Assembly (NCBI RefSeq): GCF_000374065.1
Contig: NZ_KB893249.1
Location: forward strand, 96,052 to 160,051
Origin: Spirosoma luteum DSM 19990
Lineage (GTDB): Bacteria; Bacteroidota; Bacteroidia; Cytophagales; Spirosomataceae
DNA length: 64,000 bases
Reading direction: 5' to 3'
Shown here: in pieces, positions 2,140 to 37,234 of the stretch
Position numbering within the stretch: the stretch's first letter is position 1
Layout of the letters: every line of letters begins with the position of its first letter
The notes under the pieces: model-generated
Databases searched by the model: none
Told to the model about the DNA's origin: nothing
What the model saw: only the letters and a program-made list of their open reading frames with translations
Made by a program: the position numbers and the translations under genes

Positions 2140-4281
2140 ATGTATATACCGGCTAAGCTTACATATTATATCAACCTTTGGTGGCTATTAATCAGCATTA
2201 TTATTTCGTTGGGAGCACAGGCGCAACCAACCCGTAATCAACCAGCCAACGGCCCGAAAAAGCAACTACTCACTAAGCCAAACGCGACCGGGCACGGCCC
2301 GATTGAGCGCAGCCCGACTGACCGTAGCCCGACCCGGCGTTTTTTCGGGATGCACTTCGATTTCCACGCTAACTCCAGCGATGCTCAACTTGGTCGGAAC
2401 CTTTCGGAGCAAAGCCTGGATTCGTTCCTGACAGCCGTAAAACCAGACTTTATTCAGATTGACTGCAAAGGCCATCCGGGCGTTACCAGTTATCCCTCCA
2501 GGGTGCCTAATGCCACCGCAGCCCCGGATTTCGCTAAAGATCCACTGGCGTTTTACCGGGCTGTAACCCGAAAACACGGCGTAGCTTTGTACGTGCATTA
2601 TTCGGGTGTTTTTGATATCGCTGCTCTGCAAAAGCATCCGAACTGGGGTGTTGTAAAAGCAGATGGCAGCCTGGACAAAGCCAACACATCCGTATACGGG
2701 CCCTACGCCGATTCCCTGCTCATTCCGCAGTTGAAGGAGGTAGCCGATTACGGTGTTGATGGCGTTTGGATAGACGGCGACTGCTGGGCAACGATCCCGG
2801 ATTATTCACCAGTTGCTCTCGCCCGGTTTCAGGCAGCAACGGGCATACCTGTTGGTCCTGGGCATGACCCGCCCCGCTCAGAAAAGGATGCGAATTACGA
2901 CGCGTTCAAAAACGCGGCCCGTCAGGCATTTATCCGGTACGTTGGGCATTATACCGACGAACTGCACAAACACAATCCTGCCTTTCGGGTGGCTTCCAAC
3001 TGGGCGTATTCGTCCATGATGCCGGAACCAATCACCACTAATGTCGATTACCTGTCGGGCGATTTAACGCCTGGCAATAGTGTCAATACGGCCGCCATGG
3101 AAGGGCGGATTCTGGCGGCCCAGGGCCAACATTTTCATAAACCGTGGGATTTGATGTCGTGGACTTTCTGGTATCAGTTCGGCCCTACCATGAGTGGCGA
3201 CCAGAAAACGGCGGTACACATGAAGCAGGAGGCTGCCGAAGTCATTGCGCTCGGTGGTGGCTTTCAGGGCTACGTCCGCCAGAAGGGCGATGCTTCTATT
3301 CCACTGAACGAACTGCCGGTTATGACCGAACTCAGCCAGTTTGTGCGGGCGCGGCAACCGTTTTGTCAGGGCATCACCCCTATTCCGCAGGTAGCCGTTT
3401 TGTATAGCGATGCCACCGTCAGGAAGTTTGACCAGAAACTGTTCAGTCGGGATCAGGCCTACCGGATGCAGGGCGTACTGACTGCCCTGCTGGATGCTCA
3501 GTTTCCGGTGGGGGTTCTTTCGGAGCATCACCTGACCGGCCGCATGAGCCAGTACCCGCTCATTGTGGTGTCGCAGCAAGATTCACTGGCTCCGGCGTTC
3601 CGGCAGGAGTTGCTGGATTATGCCCGGCAGGGGGGAAACCTGCTCCTGATTGGAGTAGAAACAACCAGGAACTTCGCCAATGAACTGGGCGTCGAACCCA
3701 TTGGTCAGGCGACGGCCAGTAACCGATGGGTTCATTACGGCGGGGCTACAATGGTACTCAACTCGCTGTTTCAACCCGTTCAGCCAAAGGCCGGTGTGGC
3801 TTCTTTTGGGCAGATAAGCGCCCGCGAATATGATGCGATACTGCCGGGCGTTGCGGCAAGTACCGTACCCTTCGGCAAGGGGAAACTGATGGGCGTATAC
3901 GCCGACTTAAGCCAGGATTATATTCAGCACCAATCATCCAAGGCCCGTGATTTTATAGCCACGCTGACCCATACCCTACTACCCAATCCGGTAGTGACCG
4001 TAACAGGCTCTCATCTGGTGCATGTCATAGCCAACCGATTGGGGAGTCAGCTAGCCATAAACCTGATCAACACCGGCGGCCGCCACGCCGACCCACGCGT
4101 ATTTACGTACGACGAAGTACCGCCCCTCTCGAACCTGACCATTACGATTCGCACCGAAAAAAAACCCTTCAAGGTTGTACAGCAACCGGAGAATACTGCC
4201 CTAGCGTTTACTTATCAGGCGGGTATCGCCACTGTTACGGTACCAAACCTGTTGATTCATTCGGTTTTGGTTGTGGAATGA
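2140..4281 (+). CDS. Secreted glycoside-hydrolase-like TIM-barrel protein
   Basis: The product has 713 residues. The frame is open from 2014, but the ATG at 2140 is preferred because it starts a clear signal peptide (a hydrophobic run ending in GAQAQ). The mature part has a TIM-barrel-like region with FFGMHFDFHA at its start, the motif VDGVWIDGD near the middle of the barrel, and a following segment resembling the beta-galactosidase trimerisation or glutamine-amidotransferase-like fold (IPQVAVLYSD onward). This layout is that of hypothetical glycosyl hydrolase family 6 (GHL6) and alpha-fucosidase-like proteins. Likely role: periplasmic or outer-surface cleavage of a glycan. The substrate is unknown and family membership is from recall. 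The following gene is xylose isomerase, which suggests a sugar-catabolic neighbourhood. Confidence 0.7.
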   Translation: MYIPAKLTYYINLWWLLISIIISLGAQAQPTRNQPANGPKKQLLTKPNATGHGPIERSPTDRSPTRRFFGMHFDFHANSSDAQLGRNLSEQSLDSFLTAVKPDFIQIDCKGHPGVTSYPSRVPNATAAPDFAKDPLAFYRAVTRKHGVALYVHYSGVFDIAALQKHPNWGVVKADGSLDKANTSVYGPYADSLLIPQLKEVADYGVDGVWIDGDCWATIPDYSPVALARFQAATGIPVGPGHDPPRSEKDANYDAFKNAARQAFIRYVGHYTDELHKHNPAFRVASNWAYSSMMPEPITTNVDYLSGDLTPGNSVNTAAMEGRILAAQGQHFHKPWDLMSWTFWYQFGPTMSGDQKTAVHMKQEAAEVIALGGGFQGYVRQKGDASIPLNELPVMTELSQFVRARQPFCQGITPIPQVAVLYSDATVRKFDQKLFSRDQAYRMQGVLTALLDAQFPVGVLSEHHLTGRMSQYPLIVVSQQDSLAPAFRQELLDYARQGGNLLLIGVETTRNFANELGVEPIGQATASNRWVHYGGATMVLNSLFQPVQPKAGVASFGQISAREYDAILPGVAASTVPFGKGKLMGVYADLSQDYIQHQSSKARDFIATLTHTLLPNPVVTVTGSHLVHVIANRLGSQLAINLINTGGRHADPRVFTYDEVPPLSNLTITIRTEKKPFKVVQQPENTALAFTYQAGIATVTVPNLLIHSVLVVE

Positions 4282-4347
4282 AGCTATTAACACAAATGAA
4301 TCCACCAGATCAGTTCCGGTCAGAAAGCCCGTAGCCTATAAAAGACA

Positions 4348-4377
4348 TTGCCCAAATAACAGGAGAAACTACCTTTG
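4348..4377 (+). promoter_or_regulatory. Promoter of xylA (Bacteroidota type)
   Basis: TTG at 4348-4350 is followed after 19 bases by TACCTTTG at 4370-4377. This fits the Bacteroidota primary sigma-factor pattern TTTG-N19-21-TAnnTTTG. It predicts transcription starting about 30 bases before the chosen xylA ATG at 4415, which supports that start over the upstream in-frame ATG at 4385. Confidence 0.65.
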
Positions 4378-4414
4378 ACTTTCTTTGGTACGTACTACCT
4401 CAATTTTCATTTTC

Positions 4415-6748: not shown

Positions 6749-7981
6749 ATGAATGCTGACATTGCCTTTGACGAGGAACGCCCTGAGCAACAATCGGTCG
6801 TTGATTACAAGAAAAATCAGAAACAACGAAAGTTGCTGGCCTATCTCTACGCCGAAGAAACCTGCACCTTGGCCCGTCTGACCAAGGTGCTCCACAGCAG
6901 TGTGCCCTCCGTAACAAATCTGGTCGATGAACTGATTCAGGACCAGTGGGTAACACCCATAGGCATGGGGTCGGGCAGCAATGGTAGGCGACCCGTACTT
7001 TTCGGTCTGAATAACCAGTATCATTATACGGCAGTGCTGGATGTCAGTACCCACGATACTAAAATCCTGTTTATGAATACGCAGCGGATTGTTGTCCACC
7101 GCTCCGACTATCCGCTCCAGTTAATAAACAACCCTGATTACATACTCTCGCTGGTCGATTGTTTTACCCTGGCCCTGACCGATTCCGGCCTGTTGCTAGC
7201 TCAACTCGTTGCCGTTGGTGTATCCATGCCGGGTTTGGTCGATGCCCGGCGCGGGATAAATCTGACGTATAAAAATCTGAGCAATGGCTACGACTCCCTC
7301 ACGCAATGCCTGTCGGAGAAGCTGAGCAAACCGGCTTATATACTGAACGATACAAAGGCTACGGTGCTGGGCGAGAGCCGGTTTGGCAATGCGAAAGGTA
7401 AACAACAGATGCTGGCAATCAACATCGACTGGGGTGTTGGTTTGGGTATCCTGGTCAATGGCCACGTATTTCAGGGAGCCAGTGGATTTGCTGGTGAGTT
7501 AGGCCATATTCAGGTTGAACCGGAGGGAGAATTGTGCCACTGTGGTAAAATTGGCTGTTTGGACACTGTCACGTCAGCGTCGGCACTGGTCCGGCGGGTA
7601 CAGCGCGATGTGCAGGCGGGTCAGGTGTCCAAGCTAGCTGTTTTCCGCCAGGAGGCAGACAGGATTGATATCGACGAAATCATTAGCGCGGCCCGTCATG
7701 GGGATTCGTACGCCATCGATATTCTGCACGGAGCCGGCTTGCAGTTGGGCAAGGGCCTGTCAGTGGCAATCAGCCTTTTCAACCCCGAAGTTATAATTAT
7801 TGACGGCGTACTGGCCGAAGCCGCTACGTTCATCCTGAACACTATTGAGCAGGCCCTCAGCAAATACTGCCTGAGTGATTTTAGAAACGACTTAACCATT
7901 GAAATTACGCAGTTGAACGGAGCCGCCAAATGGCTGGGTACTCACGCGTATATGATGGAAGATATTTTTGCCAACTATTGA
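6749..7981 (+). CDS. ROK-family transcriptional regulator (first copy)
   Basis: The 410-residue product has a winged-helix DNA-binding domain at about residues 25-75 (LAYLYAEETCTLARLTKVLH, then SVPSVTNLVDELI) fused to a ROK sugar-kinase-like domain. The ROK zinc site is present as GELGH and C-x-C-G-x-x-G-C (CHCGKIGC). This architecture is that of NagC, XylR and Mlc, sugar-responsive repressors. It is a close paralogue of the protein at 21256-22467. Its place between xylose isomerase and the SusC/SusD block makes control of one or both plausible, but no operator is proven. Confidence 0.92.
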   Translation: MNADIAFDEERPEQQSVVDYKKNQKQRKLLAYLYAEETCTLARLTKVLHSSVPSVTNLVDELIQDQWVTPIGMGSGSNGRRPVLFGLNNQYHYTAVLDVSTHDTKILFMNTQRIVVHRSDYPLQLINNPDYILSLVDCFTLALTDSGLLLAQLVAVGVSMPGLVDARRGINLTYKNLSNGYDSLTQCLSEKLSKPAYILNDTKATVLGESRFGNAKGKQQMLAINIDWGVGLGILVNGHVFQGASGFAGELGHIQVEPEGELCHCGKIGCLDTVTSASALVRRVQRDVQAGQVSKLAVFRQEADRIDIDEIISAARHGDSYAIDILHGAGLQLGKGLSVAISLFNPEVIIIDGVLAEAATFILNTIEQALSKYCLSDFRNDLTIEITQLNGAAKWLGTHAYMMEDIFANY

Positions 7982-8028
7982 CGGAAGGGACTGCAGGGGC
8001 GAGCCTGAAAGAAAAATAAAAATGGATA

Positions 8029-8610
8029 ATGAGTAAGCAACAAGGGATAATGACAGGTTTAGCTGGTCAATGCCGGTCATTTTTCGTCATCCTTTGTACC
8101 CTGTTCACTTGTTTTCTCGTAACCGGATTTGTCCCGCAGCAACATTCGTTGCGACAACCTCCATTCCGGCAACTTCCGTTGCGAGTCCTTATTTTTCTGG
8201 ATACCGAATGCCCTATTTGTCAGCAAACAGCCCGCAGGGTTCAGGAAATGGCTACCCGGTATGATAACCGGGTGCAGTTTTTAGCCATATACCCCACCGA
8301 AACGGTTACGCTGGCTGACGTGACCGAATTTAACCGGGCGTATAAACTGACCATCCCTCACCAGCTTGATCCGGCCCACAAACTGGTAAAGAAGTATAAG
8401 GCCACCACTACGCCGGAAGTCCTGCTACTCTCCGCTCAGAACAGGATTTTATACCGGGGCAGTGTCGATAACCAGTTCTACCGGTTGGGAAGAAGTCGCC
8501 CGGAACCCACCGAATTTTACCTCAACGATGCGCTGACGGCCGTTATGGTCGGCAAACCGGTCGCCATCCGGCAAACCAAACCCACCGGCTGTTTGATTAA
8601 CCAGCCTTGA
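8029..8610 (+). CDS. Secreted/anchored redoxin-like protein, CPIC motif
   Basis: The 193-residue product has a hydrophobic N-terminal segment (about residues 17-34) acting as signal or anchor, then a thioredoxin-fold domain. FLDTECPIC carries the redox pair C61 and C64 right after the first beta strand, and the cis-Pro region appears as TTTPEVLLL. This resembles AhpC/TSA or redoxin proteins and the SCO/TlpA group. Predicted role: thiol or electron transfer outside the cytoplasm. It is followed 89 bases later by a protein with a c-type haem motif and FG-GAP repeats, a pairing suggesting joint redox work (inference). An alternative start is the ATG at 8050. Confidence 0.75.
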   Translation: MSKQQGIMTGLAGQCRSFFVILCTLFTCFLVTGFVPQQHSLRQPPFRQLPLRVLIFLDTECPICQQTARRVQEMATRYDNRVQFLAIYPTETVTLADVTEFNRAYKLTIPHQLDPAHKLVKKYKATTTPEVLLLSAQNRILYRGSVDNQFYRLGRSRPEPTEFYLNDALTAVMVGKPVAIRQTKPTGCLINQP

Positions 8611-8699
8611 ATTTCCTGACCGGTACTTACGTTGACAGGCTGTACGCGGCAACCGGCCAGAATAAATAACCCATTAGCAGAAAAGCCCCGACAGACCAA

Positions 8700-31367: not shown

Positions 31368-32393
31368 TTAACTAATTAATACGGACCGGTACATTTCCAG
31401 GTTCTTGATAACTTCACCCGTCCCTTTTACTACGGCTTTGAGGGGGTCATCGGCCACGTGAATAGGCAGTTTTGTTTTGGCACCCAGCCGCTTATCCAGC
31501 CCATGCAGTAGGGCACCGCCCCCCGTCAGGTGAATACCGTTGGTATAAATATCAGCCGACAACTCCGGTGGCGAAATTTCGAGCGCCTTCATGGTAGCCT
31601 CTTCAATTTTCGAGATGGATTTGTCGAGGGCGTACGCAATTTCACTGTAGGTAACCTTAATCTCCTTAGGAATGCCGGTCATCAGGTCACGACCACGGAT
31701 TTCGTAATCGGCCGGTGGGTTGTCGAGTTCGGGGAGAGCCGACCCTACTTCCATTTTAATTTGCTCGGCAGACCGTTCGCCAATGAGCAGGTTGTGCTCC
31801 CGGCGCATGTAATCCACAATATCACGGGTAAACACATCACCCGCAATTCGGATAGACTGTTCACAGACGATACCCGACAGGGCAATAACCGCGATTTCCG
31901 TGGTTCCCCCACCAATGTCCACAATCATGGTTCCATTGGGTTGAGTAATATCAATACCGATACCGATAGCCGCAGCAATTGGCTCGTGTACCATGTATAC
32001 TTCTTTGGCTCCGGCATGCTCAGCCGAGTCTTTAACGGCCCGCTTCTCTACCTCCGTAATGCCCGACGGGATACAAATAACCATCCGGTGCGACGGAGAA
32101 AACAGCTTGCTACCCGTGTCGATCATCTTGATCATACCCCGAATCATCAGCTCGGCAGCGGTAAAGTCGGCAATGACGCCGTCTTTTAATGGACGAATAG
32201 TTTTAATATTTTCATTGGTCTTTTCGTGCATTTGCATAGCCTTATGGCCAATAGCCAGCACTTTGCCGCTGACTTTGTCCATCGCAATTATCGAAGGCTC
32301 ATCCACCACAATCCGATCCTTATGAATAATCAAGGTATTCGCCGTGCCCAGGTCAATCGCTATGTCGCTGGTTAAAAAATTGAAAAGTCCCAT
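31368..32393 (-). CDS. mreB: Rod shape-determining protein MreB (actin homologue)
   Basis: The 341-residue cytoskeletal ATPase directs lateral cell-wall growth. Actin-fold motifs: phosphate-1 loop IAIDLGTANT (about residues 11-20), phosphate-2 loop MIVDIGGGTTEIAVIALSG near residue 160, and adenosine motif LTGGGALLHGLDKRL near 290. Length is standard. It is the first gene of the minus-strand mreBCD operon; a -7-like box lies at 32447-32454. Confidence 0.97.
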   Translation of the reverse strand: MGLFNFLTSDIAIDLGTANTLIIHKDRIVVDEPSIIAMDKVSGKVLAIGHKAMQMHEKTNENIKTIRPLKDGVIADFTAAELMIRGMIKMIDTGSKLFSPSHRMVICIPSGITEVEKRAVKDSAEHAGAKEVYMVHEPIAAAIGIGIDITQPNGTMIVDIGGGTTEIAVIALSGIVCEQSIRIAGDVFTRDIVDYMRREHNLLIGERSAEQIKMEVGSALPELDNPPADYEIRGRDLMTGIPKEIKVTYSEIAYALDKSISKIEEATMKALEISPPELSADIYTNGIHLTGGGALLHGLDKRLGAKTKLPIHVADDPLKAVVKGTGEVIKNLEMYRSVLIS

Positions 32394-32446
32394 TCTAGGT
32401 CGGCGCAGAACGCCTTGTTACAAGTACTGGTTTATTGAAATGTGTG

Positions 32447-32454
32447 CAAAAATA
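32447..32454 (-). promoter_or_regulatory. -7 box of the mreB promoter
   Basis: Read on the minus strand this is TATTTTTG, matching TAnnTTTG, 53 bases before the mreB start. No TTG was found at the expected -33 distance, so it is only half a match. Confidence 0.4.
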
Positions 32455-32469
32455 TAGATTATTAATCAG

Positions 32470-32554
32470 AATGATGAATGATGAATGGTGAATGATGAGA
32501 CAAGAACACATGATAAACCTATCATTCATAACGCATCATTCATCATTCATCATT
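32470..32554. repeat. Intergenic inverted repeat of AATGATG units
   Basis: The left arm (32470-32499) and right arm (32521-32554) are built from the heptamer-like unit AATGATG and its complement, giving at least 18 perfectly paired bases (AATGATGAATGATGAATG at 32470-32487). It lies between divergent mreB and GH3 promoters. Similar hairpins made of TCATT/AATGA units occur before ilvN, ilvA and the long IPMS-family gene. Confidence 0.65.
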
Positions 32555-32565
32555 AAAATTAGCCT

Positions 32566-32573
32566 TACTTTTG
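32566..32573 (+). promoter_or_regulatory. -7 box of the GH3-gene promoter
   Basis: TACTTTTG matches TAnnTTTG and ends only seven bases before the ATG at 32581, so the transcript would be leaderless or nearly so if this box is used. No -33 TTG is seen at 19-21 bases upstream. Confidence 0.4.
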
Positions 32574-32580
32574 TACTACT

Positions 32581-34083
32581 ATGGGAATTCGGTCGGTCGT
32601 TAGTAAGCCATTGGCCCGGTGGGTGGTGGAGCGTCAACAAAGCTGGATGTATCAGGCGGGCGAAGCGCAACAACGCTGGCTCAAGCGGTTGATAGCTGGT
32701 GGCCAGGACACTGTTTTTGGCCGCGATCATCGATTCAGGGACGTACAGACCATTCAGGAGTTTAGGCAGGCGGTTCCGGTTCGGGATTACGAAGACCTGA
32801 AACCGTACATTGAACAGATACTGGCTGGTGATTCCGATGTTCTCTGGAAAGGGAAACCACTCTATTTTGCTAAAACCTCCGGTACTACATCGGGTACCAA
32901 GTACATTCCTATTACGCAGGATTCTATTCCCAACCATATTAACTCGGCCCGCGATGCGCTGCTGAATTATATTGACGAAACGGGAAATAGTGGGTTTCTG
33001 GATGAAAAATTAATCTTTTTGTCCGGCAGCCCGGAGCTAACCCAGCAAGCTGGTATTAATATTGGGCGATTGTCGGGTATTGTCAATCACCACGTTCCTG
33101 CTTACCTGCGTACCAACCAGATGCCCAGCTACGAAACCAACGTCATCGACGACTGGGAAACCAAGCTGGAGCGCATCATCGACGAAACCATCGACCAACC
33201 CATGTCCCTGATTTCGGGGATTCCGCCATGGGTGCAGATGTACTTCGACCGGATTCAGGCGCGTACCGGCAAGCTGATTAAAGACGTGTTTCCTGACTTT
33301 TCGTTGTTTGTGTACGGCGGGGTCAATTTTGAACCCTACCGGGCTAAATTGTTCGAGAGTATTGGTAAACGGATCGACTCTATAGAAACCTACCCGGCTT
33401 CCGAGGGCTTCATCGCATTTCAGGACAGCCAGACCGAAGAAGGGCTCTTGATGCTGTTGGACAGCGGTATCTTTTTTGAGTTCATTGCCGCCGATGAGTA
33501 CTTCGCCGAAAACCCACGCCGACTAACGATTGAGGAAGTGGAGTTGGGTAAAAACTACGCGGTTATTGTCAACAATAACGCTGGCTTGTGGGGCTATTCT
33601 CTCGGCGATACGGTCAAGTTTGTGTCGCGGGACCCCTACCGATTGCTGGTAACGGGGCGCATCAAGCACTTCATCTCGGCTTTTGGCGAGCACGTTATTG
33701 GAGAAGAGGTAGAAAAAGCCCTGAAAGATGCCATGCAGAAACACCCCGAAACGGAAGTGGTGGAGTTTACCGTAGCACCCATGGTCAGCCCGAACGAGGG
33801 TCTCCCCTACCACGAGTGGCTGGTGGAATTTGCCACGCCCCCCCATGACCCAGTCGCCTTCACCCGTGACTTGGATAACCGGTTAATTGAATTGAACGTA
33901 TATTACAGCGACCTCATTACCGGCTCCATCCTGCAACCGCTGAAACTAACGAGCTTACCACGCGGAGCCTTTCAGCGTTACATGAAAGCGCAGGGAAAAC
34001 TAGGCGGACAGAATAAAGTGCCACGCCTGGCCAATGACCGAAAGATTGTGGACGGGTTAGTGGCGATAATGCACAACGCATAA
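32581..34083 (+). CDS. GH3-family acyl-adenylating amide synthetase
   Basis: The 500-residue product belongs to the GH3 (auxin-responsive promoter) family of acyl-acid amido synthetases in the ANL superfamily. It carries the ATP-phosphate loop KTSGTTSGTKYIPIT near residue 100, VYGGVNFEPYR and YPASEGFIAFQ (adenylation motif), and the hinge region LGDTVKFVSRDPYRLLVTGRIKHFISAFGEHV before the C-terminal lid. Such enzymes adenylate a carboxylic acid and join it to an amino acid; bacterial substrates are mostly unknown. The ATPase gene of the inserted cassette begins 13 bases after its stop, so the cassette probably rides on this promoter. Confidence 0.92.
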   Translation: MGIRSVVSKPLARWVVERQQSWMYQAGEAQQRWLKRLIAGGQDTVFGRDHRFRDVQTIQEFRQAVPVRDYEDLKPYIEQILAGDSDVLWKGKPLYFAKTSGTTSGTKYIPITQDSIPNHINSARDALLNYIDETGNSGFLDEKLIFLSGSPELTQQAGINIGRLSGIVNHHVPAYLRTNQMPSYETNVIDDWETKLERIIDETIDQPMSLISGIPPWVQMYFDRIQARTGKLIKDVFPDFSLFVYGGVNFEPYRAKLFESIGKRIDSIETYPASEGFIAFQDSQTEEGLLMLLDSGIFFEFIAADEYFAENPRRLTIEEVELGKNYAVIVNNNAGLWGYSLGDTVKFVSRDPYRLLVTGRIKHFISAFGEHVIGEEVEKALKDAMQKHPETEVVEFTVAPMVSPNEGLPYHEWLVEFATPPHDPVAFTRDLDNRLIELNVYYSDLITGSILQPLKLTSLPRGAFQRYMKAQGKLGGQNKVPRLANDRKIVDGLVAIMHNA

Positions 34084-34096
34084 TGGATACTATAAA

Positions 34097-35479
34097 ATGA
34101 AAATAACCGGCATCGAGATTGGCAAATACCGTCAGTTCAAAAATATAAAGTTTGATTTCACCTATCCGGCTGACCATGAGAAAGCAGGTCAACCTTTGGA
34201 GAAAGTGTGTTTTATCGGGCAAAGTGGTACGGGGAAGACTACGTTACTCAATGTAATATTTGATTTCTTTCAGGTTGTAAATGATGGCTATCAAATATTA
34301 AATAACAGGTTTTCGATTTCTTCCGTTACCCATTACAACGCTTTCAAGGAAAATCTTTCTGTATCCGCTCTAATTGACAATCAACAAATTTCTTTCAGTT
34401 CAAAACACATACGAAACCCTACAGATTTTTTCATAAATAACAACAAAGATATTGCAGGAAGTAGCTTAGACTGGATGAAAAGTCTAGACATACTTGAACT
34501 AATAAAATTACATAAAAAACTCTGCTTATACATCGATGATTCTTCGGCGAATCATGCGTACACTCTTACTGGGGACAGAAACGAAATCGGAAATAGACCA
34601 TATCTTACTAGCACCGACGAAATTTTCCTTGCCAATGAAAAACGTGAAGAGTTTATAAATAAGATAGAACAATCAAAAGTAATGTCTTTGCATTCATTAG
34701 ATGGTCGTTATCTATGGTCTTATCTATTAGGTGATATTGAAAAATACGACGAAAGTTTAAAAAAAATCGCGATTGACCTCATTCAGAAGAATGGTAGTTT
34801 TTCCCCTGATCGCTTGACAAAAAACTTAACCAAATGGCAGGAAGAAAACCCAAATCCTAAAGTTTCTTTAGCTACTGAATGTTTGAACCCGATTTTAGAA
34901 AATTTCTTTCTAGAAGTCGATACAGAAGGAACTGAAGCACTGATAGTTATTAGAACGAAGAATGGCAATCAACTGCAATACAATGGTTTGAGCACAGGAA
35001 CTAAGCAGTTATTAGTAACAGCTATCCCAATTTATAAAGGCCAAGTCGATAGAGGAGTTGTTCTCTTCGACGAACCCGAACGCTCACTATTTCCAGACAT
35101 CCAGCGTATTCTAATCAAACATTACACTTCTCTTGCTCCCGAAGCCCAATTCTTTTTCGCGACACACTCACCCATTGTGGCATCAGCCTTTGAACCTTGT
35201 GAGCGGTTCATCTTATATTTTGATGAAAACGGCGAGGTCAAGTTTCATAATGGCGTTGCACCCGAAGGTGATGACCCGAATGATATTTTAAGACAGGATT
35301 TTGGCATGGAACCGCTCATGCTTGATAAAGGTGTGGAGGAGTATCAGCGTTACCTCGATTTGAGTACAAAAATCCTGAATGAGGCAAATGTTGATCGTCG
35401 TATGGAATTGATTGCAGAGCGTTCAGTAATTGGAAATAAGTATAATTTCTCTGTGACGAATTCTGATGAAACGAATTAA
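34097..35479 (+). CDS. AAA/ABC-type ATPase of a putative defence pair
   Basis: The 460-residue cytosolic product has the SMC/OLD-like ABC ATPase layout. N-terminal KYRQFKNIKFDF is the usual edge strand, Walker A is GQSGTGKT (residues 41-48), an ABC-signature-like LSTGTKQL lies near 300, Walker B is VVLFDEPE (D325, E326), and the H-loop is ATHSPIVAS (H357). A helical insertion occupies about residues 100-290. It resembles PtuA of Septu systems and other AAA_15/AAA_21 defence ATPases. It is visibly more AT-rich than its neighbours, suggesting horizontal acquisition, and overlaps the HNH gene by 14 bases. Family placement is by motif and context only. Confidence 0.85.
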   Translation: MKITGIEIGKYRQFKNIKFDFTYPADHEKAGQPLEKVCFIGQSGTGKTTLLNVIFDFFQVVNDGYQILNNRFSISSVTHYNAFKENLSVSALIDNQQISFSSKHIRNPTDFFINNNKDIAGSSLDWMKSLDILELIKLHKKLCLYIDDSSANHAYTLTGDRNEIGNRPYLTSTDEIFLANEKREEFINKIEQSKVMSLHSLDGRYLWSYLLGDIEKYDESLKKIAIDLIQKNGSFSPDRLTKNLTKWQEENPNPKVSLATECLNPILENFFLEVDTEGTEALIVIRTKNGNQLQYNGLSTGTKQLLVTAIPIYKGQVDRGVVLFDEPERSLFPDIQRILIKHYTSLAPEAQFFFATHSPIVASAFEPCERFILYFDENGEVKFHNGVAPEGDDPNDILRQDFGMEPLMLDKGVEEYQRYLDLSTKILNEANVDRRMELIAERSVIGNKYNFSVTNSDETN

Positions 35480-36065
35480 TAAAAAGACTGATTCACTCAT
35501 CGTTAAAGAAGAGTTAACGTATAAGAGAGGAGATAACAGCCGTATCGCCCAACTGCTAAAAGCGGAGCAGAATAACATTTGCGCTTATACTGAAGAATAT
35601 CTTGGTCGGGCCGATAAAGCGGAAATAGAACATTTTGACCCAACGCTTAAATCAATAGACCGTGATGGTTATCAAAACTGGTTTTTAGTAAAAGCGCAGT
35701 GGAATAACGAGAAGGGAAGCACGGCACGTTGGAAAAGACATCAACCACTTATATATCCTACAGCTATAGATTTTGAAGCACGTATTTTGTACGATAACGG
35801 AAATTATATATTAGCTGACGAAAATGATATTGAGGCCCGTAATTTGAGGACTTACTTAAAACTTGATGATGCAAAATTAGCAGAACAACGCGTTTTTTAT
35901 ATTCAGCGTTTGAAAGAAGAAATTAAGCTATCAGGGTTGACAAGTCAGGAGTTTATTAATTGGCGCTTATCGAATTCCCCTTACCAAAGCACAATTTACT
36001 ACATCCGCGCTATTGAAGAAGAATTAAATGTTAAAGTCAATTTTGACTTGTTGAAAAATACATGA
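35466..36065 (+). CDS. Divergent HNH endonuclease-like protein (PtuB-like)
   Basis: The 199-residue product resembles the HNH nuclease partners of defence ATPases (PtuB/TIGR02646-like). The core reads NNICAYTEEYLG (C39), IEHFDP (H56), YQNWFLVKAQWNNEKG (N71, N80/N81, K83), giving the H-N-N order of an HNH fold. Usual relatives have CxxC pairs binding zinc (ICAYC and CNN-K); here threonine replaces the second Cys and W replaces the Cys of CNN, so the zinc site is missing or changed. It is AT-rich like its partner. It overlaps the ATPase by 14 bases and dxr by four, so all three are translationally linked. Confidence 0.75.
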   Translation: MKRINKKTDSLIVKEELTYKRGDNSRIAQLLKAEQNNICAYTEEYLGRADKAEIEHFDPTLKSIDRDGYQNWFLVKAQWNNEKGSTARWKRHQPLIYPTAIDFEARILYDNGNYILADENDIEARNLRTYLKLDDAKLAEQRVFYIQRLKEEIKLSGLTSQEFINWRLSNSPYQSTIYYIRAIEEELNVKVNFDLLKNT

Positions 36066-37234
36066 CTGACATAAAAAAACGCCACATCGCCATTCTCGGT
36101 TCAACCGGTTCAATCGGGACACAGGCTGTGGAGGTGATAAAGGCCCACCCCGACCGGTTTCAGGTGGAGGTGCTCACAACCAACAACAACGCCGAATTAC
36201 TGATTCAACAGGCCATCGAACTCAATCCGAACGTAGTGGTCATCTGTAACCAGGACCGGTACGATCAGGTGTTTTCGGCCCTCGACCCGCTAGGCGTAAA
36301 GGTGTATGCCGGGGCTAACAGCATTGCCTCCGTGGTGCAGATGGATACCATCGATATGGTGCTGACCGCGATGGTTGGTTATGCCGGTTTGCTACCGACT
36401 ATCAAAGCCATTGAAGCAGGAAAAGCCATTGCGCTGGCCAACAAAGAAACCCTAGTAGTGGCGGGCGAGCTAATCACCCGGCTAGCGGCTCAGAAAGGAA
36501 TAAATATTTACCCCGTCGATTCCGAGCATTCTGCCATATTTCAGTGTCTGGTTGGTGAGTTTCACAACCCGATTGAGAAGATTATTTTAACGGCGTCGGG
36601 TGGGCCGTTCAGGGGCAAATCGCGGGAGTTTTTATCGACCGTCACGAAAGCGCAGGCGCTCAAACACCCCAACTGGACCATGGGAGCCAAGATTACCATT
36701 GATTCTGCTACCCTGATGAATAAAGGGCTGGAAGTAATCGAAGCGAAATGGCTGTTCAACCTCCGGGCGGAGCAGATTGATGTGGTGGTCCACCCGCAAA
36801 GCATTGTTCATTCGCTGGTGCAGTTTGAAGATGGGAGCTTGAAAGCCCAGATGGGTCTACCCGATATGCGGCTACCCATTCAGTTTGCGCTGGGGTATCC
36901 AAATCGACTGAAGTCTGATTTTCCGCGTTTCAACTTTATGGATTATCCGTCCCTCACCTTCGAGCAGCCTGACCTGAAAACGTTCCGTAACCTGCAACTG
37001 GCTTTCGATGCGCTTGACCGGGGTGGCAATGCCGCCTGCATCATTAATGCCGCTAATGAAGTGGCGGTAGATGCCTTTCTGCACGATCAAATCAGTTTCC
37101 TGGAAATTTCGGATTTAATCGAATCCTGTCTTTCCAAAGCTACTTTTGTGCAAAATCCTGCTTACGACGATTACGTGAGTACGGATCAGGAAGTGCGTCG
37201 GCTAGCTACGGAGCGAATTAAAACCTTCGTTTAG
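36062..37234 (+). CDS. dxr: 1-deoxy-D-xylulose-5-phosphate reductoisomerase
   Basis: The 390-residue enzyme is the second of the MEP isoprenoid pathway, converting DXP to MEP with NADPH. NADPH loop GSTGSIG (residues 13-19), metal and substrate site PVDSEHSAIFQCL, flexible loop TASGGPFRG, PNWTMGAKITIDSATLMNKGLEVIEA, and DVVVHPQSIVHSLV are all intact. The start overlaps the stop of the HNH gene as ATGA, so this essential gene is now apparently coupled to an acquired cassette; no TAnnTTTG promoter was seen just upstream. rseP follows, as in many Bacteroidota. Confidence 0.97.
   Translation: MTDIKKRHIAILGSTGSIGTQAVEVIKAHPDRFQVEVLTTNNNAELLIQQAIELNPNVVVICNQDRYDQVFSALDPLGVKVYAGANSIASVVQMDTIDMVLTAMVGYAGLLPTIKAIEAGKAIALANKETLVVAGELITRLAAQKGINIYPVDSEHSAIFQCLVGEFHNPIEKIILTASGGPFRGKSREFLSTVTKAQALKHPNWTMGAKITIDSATLMNKGLEVIEAKWLFNLRAEQIDVVVHPQSIVHSLVQFEDGSLKAQMGLPDMRLPIQFALGYPNRLKSDFPRFNFMDYPSLTFEQPDLKTFRNLQLAFDALDRGGNAACIINAANEVAVDAFLHDQISFLEISDLIESCLSKATFVQNPAYDDYVSTDQEVRRLATERIKTFV

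Follow-up and report, generated by a model that had tools for sequence, protein, structure and literature searches.

Septu systems and the type I-A retrons are the closest described relatives of the locus reported here, and both use an ATPase, PtuA, together with an HNH protein, PtuB. Septu EcB88 of Escherichia coli requires its Walker and HNH residues, and tRNA-Tyr is cut in infected cells (PMC13096335); the PtuAB proteins of retron-Eco7 deplete tRNA-Tyr, those of Eco4 likely do not, and an action on DNA is reported for Septu of E. coli ATCC 25922 (PMC11555353). Retron Ec83 is described as kept inactive by multicopy single-stranded DNA (msDNA), and the E. coli PtuA-PtuB complex as a 6:2 assembly (PMC12948488). 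The present work concerns a gene pair of Spirosoma luteum DSM 19990 at positions 34097-36065 of a stretch of 64,000 nucleotides (contig NZ_KB893249.1, positions 96,052 to 160,051), hereafter the window, which an original prediction made from the DNA letters had presented as a Septu-like anti-phage candidate with a degenerate HNH protein.

The main point that emerges beyond that prediction is that the pair occupies an address shared across the genus, between a GH3-family gene and dxr, at which the cargo varies and PtuA itself is a mosaic.

A Septu-type PtuA/PtuB pair

The reading of the locus as two overlapping genes, encoding an ATPase of the ATP-binding cassette (ABC) type and an HNH-like protein with the composition of Septu, was correct. 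The PADLOC models PDLC00274 and PDLC00347 cover residues 1-451 of 460 in PtuA and 1-197 of 199 in PtuB (E-values in Table 1), and PtuA scores over the Pfam cut-offs for AAA_15 and AAA_21. The motifs GQSGTGKT, LSTGTKQ, DEP and THSP are present in the window protein, and residues G41, T45, G46, K47, S299, G301, Q304, D325, E326, P327 and H357 are invariant in an alignment built from the best 120 of 1641 proteins, from which four short, fused or partial sequences were dropped to leave 116 distinct rows, the window row being taken from the DNA. Searches with AlphaFold models of both proteins (predicted local distance difference test, pLDDT, in Table 1) using Foldseek gave PtuA of retron I-A and of E. 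coli Septu as the top-ranked matches to PtuA (9n6b_A, 1.3e-15; 8eea_C, 6.6e-15; template modeling (TM) scores 0.43-0.48), and placed retron Ec78 and Ec83 PtuB on top for PtuB, with Cas9 HNH domains next and with 9u9y_H (6.9e-4, TM about 0.55) as the sole match at E <= 0.001. The stretch 34097-36065 is thus a Septu-type PtuA/PtuB pair, well supported by profiles and folds. Among the profiles searched, the PADLOC models for PtuA and PtuB matched, and the TIGR02646 and retron NCBIfam cut-offs were not reached. A role as retron effector is not supported: the proteins fall below the NCBIfam cut-offs, and the pair fills the GH3-dxr interval, so that a reverse transcriptase gene would not fit there (other parts of the genome were not searched for such a gene or for msr-msd).

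The middle of PtuA is exchanged in place

In the PtuA alignment, two constant lobes enclose two variable blocks, V1 and V2, and are followed by a C-terminal tail (Table 1) whose residues 401-455 show a mean pairwise identity of 0.58. The sister genomes G007 and G010 encode GH3, PtuB, Dxr, RseP and Lon proteins that are 99, 98, 98, 100 and 100% identical, and MreB is likewise 98-100% identical, while their PtuA proteins share 60% of residues. At the nucleotide level the two loci are 83-100% identical per 75-base window and fall to 35-65% only at about positions 2025-2850 of the aligned stretch, a segment of about 825 bp that corresponds to ptuA codons 50-324. As near-identical sisters differ nearly throughout the middle, replacement and not drift is the explanation, and the PtuA middle has been exchanged in place between close relatives. 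Between the window and its nearest genome (G025), amino acid identity is 99% for Lon, 97% for RseP, 93% for GH3 and 93% for Dxr, and 50% and 52% for PtuA and PtuB. Within the AlphaFold model the middle is folded, with 10-residue pLDDT means mostly of 81-96 and lower values at residues 111-120, 161-170 and 231-240. Literature searches limited to openly licensed papers, and to their titles, abstract openings and selected passages, found no account of a PtuA region that varies or senses, nor a statement of what stand-alone Septu detects and with which part.

Two modules reassort independently

In Mantel comparisons over 19 loci (171 pairs), GH3, Dxr and Lon, all encoded in the flanks, varied together (r 0.73-0.83); in a related comparison with a yardstick that includes gh3, dxr, rseP and lon, MreB, which lies outside it, gave r 0.78. 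PtuA residues 1-54 track GH3 (r 0.48). The two halves of V2 covary with each other (0.75), V2 covaries with the C lobe (0.34-0.37) and V1 weakly with V2 (0.25-0.26), and the tail covaries with PtuB (r 0.68-0.71). No such relation was found between V2 and the tail (r -0.11 to 0.02), and the V blocks, the C lobe, the tail and PtuB gave r -0.09 to 0.24 against the flanks, none at p <= 0.01. Across the 116 PtuA proteins the corresponding values were r 0.03 (p 0.07) for V2 against the tail and r 0.11 (p 0.005) for V1 against V2. Approximately unbiased tests in IQ-TREE on flank, V2, and tail plus PtuB data rejected every foreign topology tried (largest p 1.35e-5), and at the cut-offs chosen the 116 proteins fall into 61 V1, 28 V2 and 7 tail classes that occur in 84 combinations. 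The PtuA middle on the one side, and the PtuA tail with PtuB on the other, therefore form two modules that reassort independently. A single-chain PtuA-PtuB fusion of 653 aa (P0171) was also observed, on a 5.7-kb contig, and may be an assembly error.

The ratio of nonsynonymous to synonymous substitutions (dN/dS) was calculated by NG86; dS is large, and the values are rough. For V2 it was 0.04-0.13 in six of eight same-class pairs (two saturated), and for V1 0.13-0.29 in three of seven (four saturated); between classes (G007-G010) it was 0.90 for V1, near saturation, and 0.19 for V2. As a control we used RecF, a housekeeping ABC-type ATPase, from 16 of the same genomes. Its identity runs at 0.91, 0.86, 0.84 and 0.82 along its length, and over the residues for which PtuA falls to 0.22-0.43 it is still 0.84-0.86; the contrast within PtuA is thus not shared by this second ATPase.

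Cargo turnover at the GH3-dxr site in Spirosoma

The genus set comprised 36 of 59 genomes, 33 of them with a readable GH3-dxr interval (dxr was unmatched in G022 and G033, and G012 is split across contigs). PtuB was found in 18 of the 36, in one case (G004) as residues 133-198 only. All 17 intact pairs lie between GH3 and dxr by tblastn, which corresponds to 17 of the 33 readable genomes, and G004 holds a pair remnant flanking a DDE transposase open reading frame (ORF; 1/33). In that locus (L045, about 7458-8655) the PtuA N-terminus and the PtuB C-terminus stand on either side of the transposase ORF.

The remaining genomes carry other cargo or almost none. Eight of the 33 have a pair of an MNT nucleotidyltransferase and a HepT-like HEPN protein in the gap (G032, G029, G003, G009, G024, G023, G030 and G016; loci L048, L061, L063, L065, L068, L069, L076 and L077), with HEPN above the Pfam cut-off in 8/8 and MNT checked by Pfam in G032 only; the MNT frame is broken in G009 and the HEPN frame ends early in G029. 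The MNT protein of G032 also matches the PADLOC candidate PDC-S09, and a HepT-like match with one in-frame TAA lies in the genome of the window itself, away from the GH3-dxr site (G000:C10:83614-83898). A ParE-like toxin gene preceded by a small ORF occupies the gap in one genome (G002), a glycosyltransferase in two (G008, tested, and G013, by likeness) and a broken MNT gene in one (G018), and three gaps are nearly empty (G034, G015, G026). The glycosyltransferase gene that fills the gap in G008 and G013 (L066, L064) is GC-rich. In the 100-bp interval of G034 (L052) about 22 residues of the PtuB C-terminus persist at the dxr overlap, a footprint showing that this site has lost the pair. The original prediction was also right that the pair has no third gene in the window; elsewhere, 6 of 17 Spirosoma carriers have an additional module of toxin-antitoxin (TA) type or a lone MNT by the pair, namely MNT/HEPN in G017 and G021, a ParE-like pair in G025 and a lone MNT in G007, G010 and G020.

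Across 35 genomes, including two that do not belong to the genus, the GH3-dxr interval measures about 0-2716 bp compared with 41-612 bp for dxr-rseP, the ends being partly projected. A dxr+rseP protein tree built for the 33 genomes requires 15 changes of cargo class (shuffled mean 14.6; as low in 160 of 200 shuffles) and 11 changes in pair presence, or 10 if the remnant is counted as a pair (shuffled mean 11.3); its strongly supported branches by themselves force 6 changes in pair presence and 4 in MNT presence. Glycosyltransferase (2 rows) was the only clustered class among those tested, and cargo overall is not clustered on this tree. In G016 dxr and rseP each match in two frames, likely through sequencing errors, and the best fragments were used. 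No integrase was seen in the GH3-dxr intervals read. The site thus combines constant core flanks with varying, putatively immune cargo in 33 genomes, although the glycosyltransferase class is not defense-like. No description of Spirosoma defense hotspots was found in searches of openly licensed literature that covered titles, abstract openings and selected passages.

The original prediction had held that homologs always placed at one locus without defense context would speak against a role in defense, and on this the outcome is mixed. All 17 intact Spirosoma pairs do sit at one locus; yet their presence is patchy, TA-type pairs occur in the same gap and alleles are swapped in place, and a fixed address is for these reasons no argument against defense.

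Distribution beyond the genus

In Arsenicibacter and Fibrisoma the pair is found at the same GH3-dxr site, and in Rudanella it adjoins dxr, the contig there starting partway through ptuA. A survey of the family gave matches in 22 of 150 genomes, 14 of them outside the genus, of which seven have the pair beside dxr and seven have no dxr within 1.5 kb; some of these genomes are of the same species as the Arsenicibacter, Fibrisoma and Rudanella records. PtuB was found without dxr in the stretch examined in Runella, Arcicella and Chitinophagales (L024, L025, L027, L028). Locus L024 (Runella limosa) contains two PtuB relatives about 6 kb apart (2527-4414 and 7594-8567), with no dxr in the stretch. 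For its first PtuA, as for the PtuA proteins of L090 and L092, the ends can be aligned and the middle cannot. Plasmid and phage records gave no match to PtuB at E 1e-5, and a scan of IMG/VR returned 20 pattern stretches and 0 relatives of PtuB; a gene of a mobile element or prophage was rejected on these searches.

The HNH domain of PtuB

PtuB homologs were collected as the best 120 of 325 proteins plus the loci, giving 142 rows of which 132 were distinct. Residues C39, H56, N71, N80 and K83 are invariant in the 132 distinct rows, which bears out the earlier statement that the H-N-N residues are kept, and the zinc-cysteine positions are otherwise nearly fixed, with T42 in 131, K76 in 130 and W79 in 130 rows. 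The motif of the window branch is C39-A-Y-T42...K76-A-Q-W79-N80, in which C39 is retained. For comparison, 13 loci with TIGR02646-type proteins of the same genus were read with a regular expression that favored such motifs, and 12 yielded a frame: CxxC...CxxCN is present in nine, the first pair is kept and the second altered in two, and one is without one first-pair cysteine. Against the CxxC...CxxCN ligands of this zinc-binding type, PtuB of the window has C39 and then T42, K76 and W79, and the loss of zinc cysteines that had been noted is real.

On this alignment, three of the four zinc-ligand positions are replaced by near-fixed residues throughout the branch, as a stable state and not as decay. 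The description of the HNH protein as degenerate does not hold: the near fixation of the substitutions, together with the invariant catalytic residues, rules out a dying domain. The pattern resembles the zinc-free HNH of Cas9 type, and PtuB would accordingly be expected not to bind zinc. Weak similarity to Cas9 HNH recurs, both in PF13395 (HNH_4), which is near its cut-off, and in Cas9 HNH profile and fold matches: the aligned core CAY-T/S, [ED]H..P, N, N..K is common to PtuB, PF13395 and the GeoCas9 HNH domains (7mpz, 8f43), and none of them has the second zinc cysteine. Unlike Cas9, PtuB has PtuA and not an RNA-guided enzyme as its partner, and the similarity is weak (19.9 bits, just under the cut-off of 22). 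Of the two options offered by the original prediction, a distinct zinc-free branch is therefore favored by the sequences, and a new chemistry is not, the pattern being that of Cas9-type HNH. The branch would represent a PtuB able to do without three of its four zinc cysteines.

Immediate context of the pair

The features of the locus are listed in Table 1. Gene order is GH3-ptuA-ptuB-dxr followed by an M50/PDZ (rseP-type) gene, and Pfam backs GH3, dxr and M50/PDZ, in agreement with the earlier view that the pair interrupts GH3-dxr-rseP. The ptuA start lies 13 bp past the GH3 stop, the ptuA and ptuB ORFs share 14 bp, and the two genes alone fill the interval in the window. As had been stated, the pair is richer in AT than its flanks, with GC contents of 0.38 for ptuA and 0.36 for ptuB against 0.52 for GH3 and 0.51 for dxr. 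The 4-bp overlap of ptuB and dxr recurs in 16 of 19 measured loci, the remaining three having a TA-type pair in between.

The motif TAnnTTTG, which we take to be the Bacteroidota -7 consensus, occurs on the + strand at 32566 as the sole copy from 32300 to 37140, and a second is found at 37141. A single copy over this range, just 5' of GH3, fits one transcript, and its placement suggests that GH3, ptuA, ptuB and dxr may be transcribed together. Scans for sigma-70 promoters (12 versus 9.0 in shuffled sequence, sd 2.8) and terminators (5 versus 5.5) gave little or no excess. At the upstream junction, one sequence (P0229, on a 22.7-kb contig) joins the GH3 C-terminus to PtuA, perhaps through read-through or an assembly error.

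Table 1. Features of the Spirosoma luteum locus in window coordinates.
Feature	Coordinates	Strand	Basis
Presumed Bacteroidota-type -7 element, TACTTTTG	32566..32573	+	Motif TAnnTTTG just 5' of GH3
Upstream flank, GH3-family gene, 500 aa	32581..34083	+	Pfam GH3, GH3_M, GH3_C above cut-off; orthologue next to the gap in the genus
ptuA, ABC-type ATPase, 460 aa	34097..35479	+	PADLOC PDLC00274, 5.8e-155; Foldseek top matches retron I-A and E. coli Septu PtuA; pLDDT 89
PtuA constant N lobe, residues 1-54 (Walker A 34217-34240)	34097..34258	+	Mean identity 0.87, 116 proteins
PtuA variable block V1, residues 58-130	34268..34486	+	Mean identity 0.17, 116 proteins; 61 classes at 45% cut
Variable block V2 of PtuA (residues 131-290), a mainly helical insertion separating the Walker A half from the signature	34487..34966	+	Mean identity 0.38; 28 classes at 50% cut; helices in model
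Constant C lobe of PtuA (residues 310-400), with Walker B DEPE and H-loop THSP	35024..35296	+	Mean identity 0.80, 116 proteins
C-terminal tail of PtuA (residues 401-460), a helical hairpin on which PtuB likely docks	35297..35476	+	Varies with PtuB; fusion P0171
ptuB, HNH nuclease, 199 aa, without three of four zinc cysteines	35466..36065	+	PADLOC PDLC00347, 1.1e-64; pLDDT 93.8; Foldseek best match retron Ec78 PtuB
HNH core, PtuB residues 39-83 (C39, T42, H56, N71, K76, W79, N80, K83)	35580..35714	+	Conservation, 132 distinct homologs
ATGA, 4-bp overlap of ptuB stop and dxr start	36062..36065	+	Same overlap in 16 of 19 loci measured
Downstream flank, dxr, 390 aa	36062..37234	+	Pfam DXP reductoisomerase domains

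Discussion

On balance we favor, if by a limited degree, the reading that this Septu-type pair is anti-phage and that the conserved PtuA lobes surround a strain-exchanged middle that would act as sensor. The middle is folded in the model, selected within classes and exchanged apart from the effector, and is for these reasons the likely sensor; furthermore, a stand-alone pair without msDNA would need to sense the phage through its own proteins. In such a mechanism, PtuA dimers or higher oligomers would keep PtuB inactive, a phage cue would be recognized by the PtuA middle and relayed via the ATPase lobes, and PtuB docked on the PtuA tail would then cut nucleic acid, either tRNA or DNA, halting phage growth. 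The covariation of tail and PtuB and the fusion P0171 bear on the PtuA-PtuB complex assumed here. Homology arms would be provided by the conserved lobes and by GH3 and dxr, so that recombination could swap sensor, effector or the entire pair with no integrase involved, and the pair would be transcribed together with dxr from the GH3 promoter. Taken further, PtuA would be an ATP-driven receptor with exchangeable recognition blocks, whose sensor (V1 x V2) is traded independently of the effector module (tail plus PtuB) in a dxr-anchored operon, which would give a two-gene Septu a combinatorial repertoire of innate immunity; for this wider proposal we see about as much reason to accept it as to doubt it.

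Several observations weigh against these proposals. The family assignment misses the NCBIfam cut-offs for NF041760, NF041761 and TIGR02646 (48.4 versus 500, 33.3 versus 150 and 18.7 versus 52.15 bits), and the Foldseek TM-scores are moderate for both models, at about 0.4-0.56. As regards reassortment, the class counts shift with the cut-offs chosen, the covariation of tail and PtuB may partly reflect adjacency in the DNA, and RecF, at r 0.55 against the flanks overall, gave 0.03 for residues 1-54 and 0.21 for residues 131-290, weak values that keep the Mantel result alone from proving reassortment. Only 10 of the 30 branches of the dxr+rseP tree are starred, and dxr may itself recombine, which makes it no clean species tree. 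Finally, the sensor role of the middle is proposed from its variation, and escape from a phage inhibitor would look identical.

Such escape is the main rival to the sensor reading. The middle would be hypervariable since phage-encoded inhibitors bind it, exchange would amount to escape, and the trigger would be generic, for instance a nucleotide level or DNA damage. The same variation, the same in-place exchange and the same purifying selection within classes are expected under it; however, the variation extends in two blocks over some 230 residues and replaces whole classes, which is more than the footprint of an inhibitor would seem to need, and we regard this explanation as unlikely, though a serious competitor. 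Clearly less probable is a pair whose chief targets are plasmids or other incoming DNA, or one that stabilizes the GH3-dxr segment in the manner of a TA system. TA-type pairs do share the site and loss can leave relics (G034), but the window pair encodes no separate antitoxin, and the PtuAB relatives studied are reported to act on phages (PMC13096335, PMC11555353).

We give marginally less credence again to an ordinary Septu whose target choice lies elsewhere and whose middle diverges neutrally as a linker or lid under little constraint. In ABC ATPases the insertions are often the regions conserved least, and a V1 of just 17% identity, with a between-class dN/dS of 0.90 near saturation (G007-G010), fits that general pattern. 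Against neutral divergence stand the replacement seen in the near-identical sisters, the low same-class dN/dS where computable, and a model that is confident over most of the block, in an ATPase whose contrast RecF lacks. That the pair is instead a housekeeping or metabolic module linked with dxr and the synthesis of isoprenoids is very improbable and was rejected on patchy presence: the fixed place beside dxr and the 4-bp overlap in 16/16 measured loci without an intervening TA-type pair would suit it, but the pair is present in 17 of 33 genomes while the others hold different cargo or nearly nothing, PtuB occurs with no dxr nearby in L024, L025, L027, L028 and 7 of 14 non-genus family genomes (1.5 kb), and the pair genes do not track the flanks.

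Returning to the sensor reading, the sisters G007 and G010 constitute a natural experiment, with near-identical pairs that differ by one exchanged PtuA stretch, and offer a test of what Septu detects. If the middle sets the trigger, Septu would join the systems with swappable recognition and its specificity would become mappable.

Compared with the Septu systems represented by PDLC00274 and PDLC00347, the window pair shares near full-length profiles, gene order, ATPase motifs, HNH residues and both folds; it differs in that PtuB of this branch has three zinc cysteines replaced, in that the PtuA middle is swapped as a cassette and in the GH3-dxr address, which is fixed in Spirosoma. With the retron I-A PtuAB proteins (Ec78/Eco7, Ec83/Eco4) it shares the folds of both proteins and the HNH type, but retron I-A PtuA is mostly 542-552 aa long and that of the window 460 aa. 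The HsdS subunit of Type I restriction systems combines a constant scaffold with exchangeable recognition blocks, and PtuA of the window branch would be built likewise; its scaffold, in contrast, is an ABC ATPase, and the target that it would recognize is only postulated. The GH3-dxr gap itself is a very small exchange site (about 0-2.7 kb) for defense and TA-type modules, in an apparent operon with an isoprenoid gene. The core defense hotspots cDHS1 and cDHS2 of Pseudomonas aeruginosa also have conserved core flanks and swapped immune cargo, and spread via recombination in the flanks has been proposed for them (PMC10250203). Relative to these hotspots, the GH3-dxr site accommodates one or two modules at once inside the apparent dxr operon, and exchange there takes place also within a single gene.

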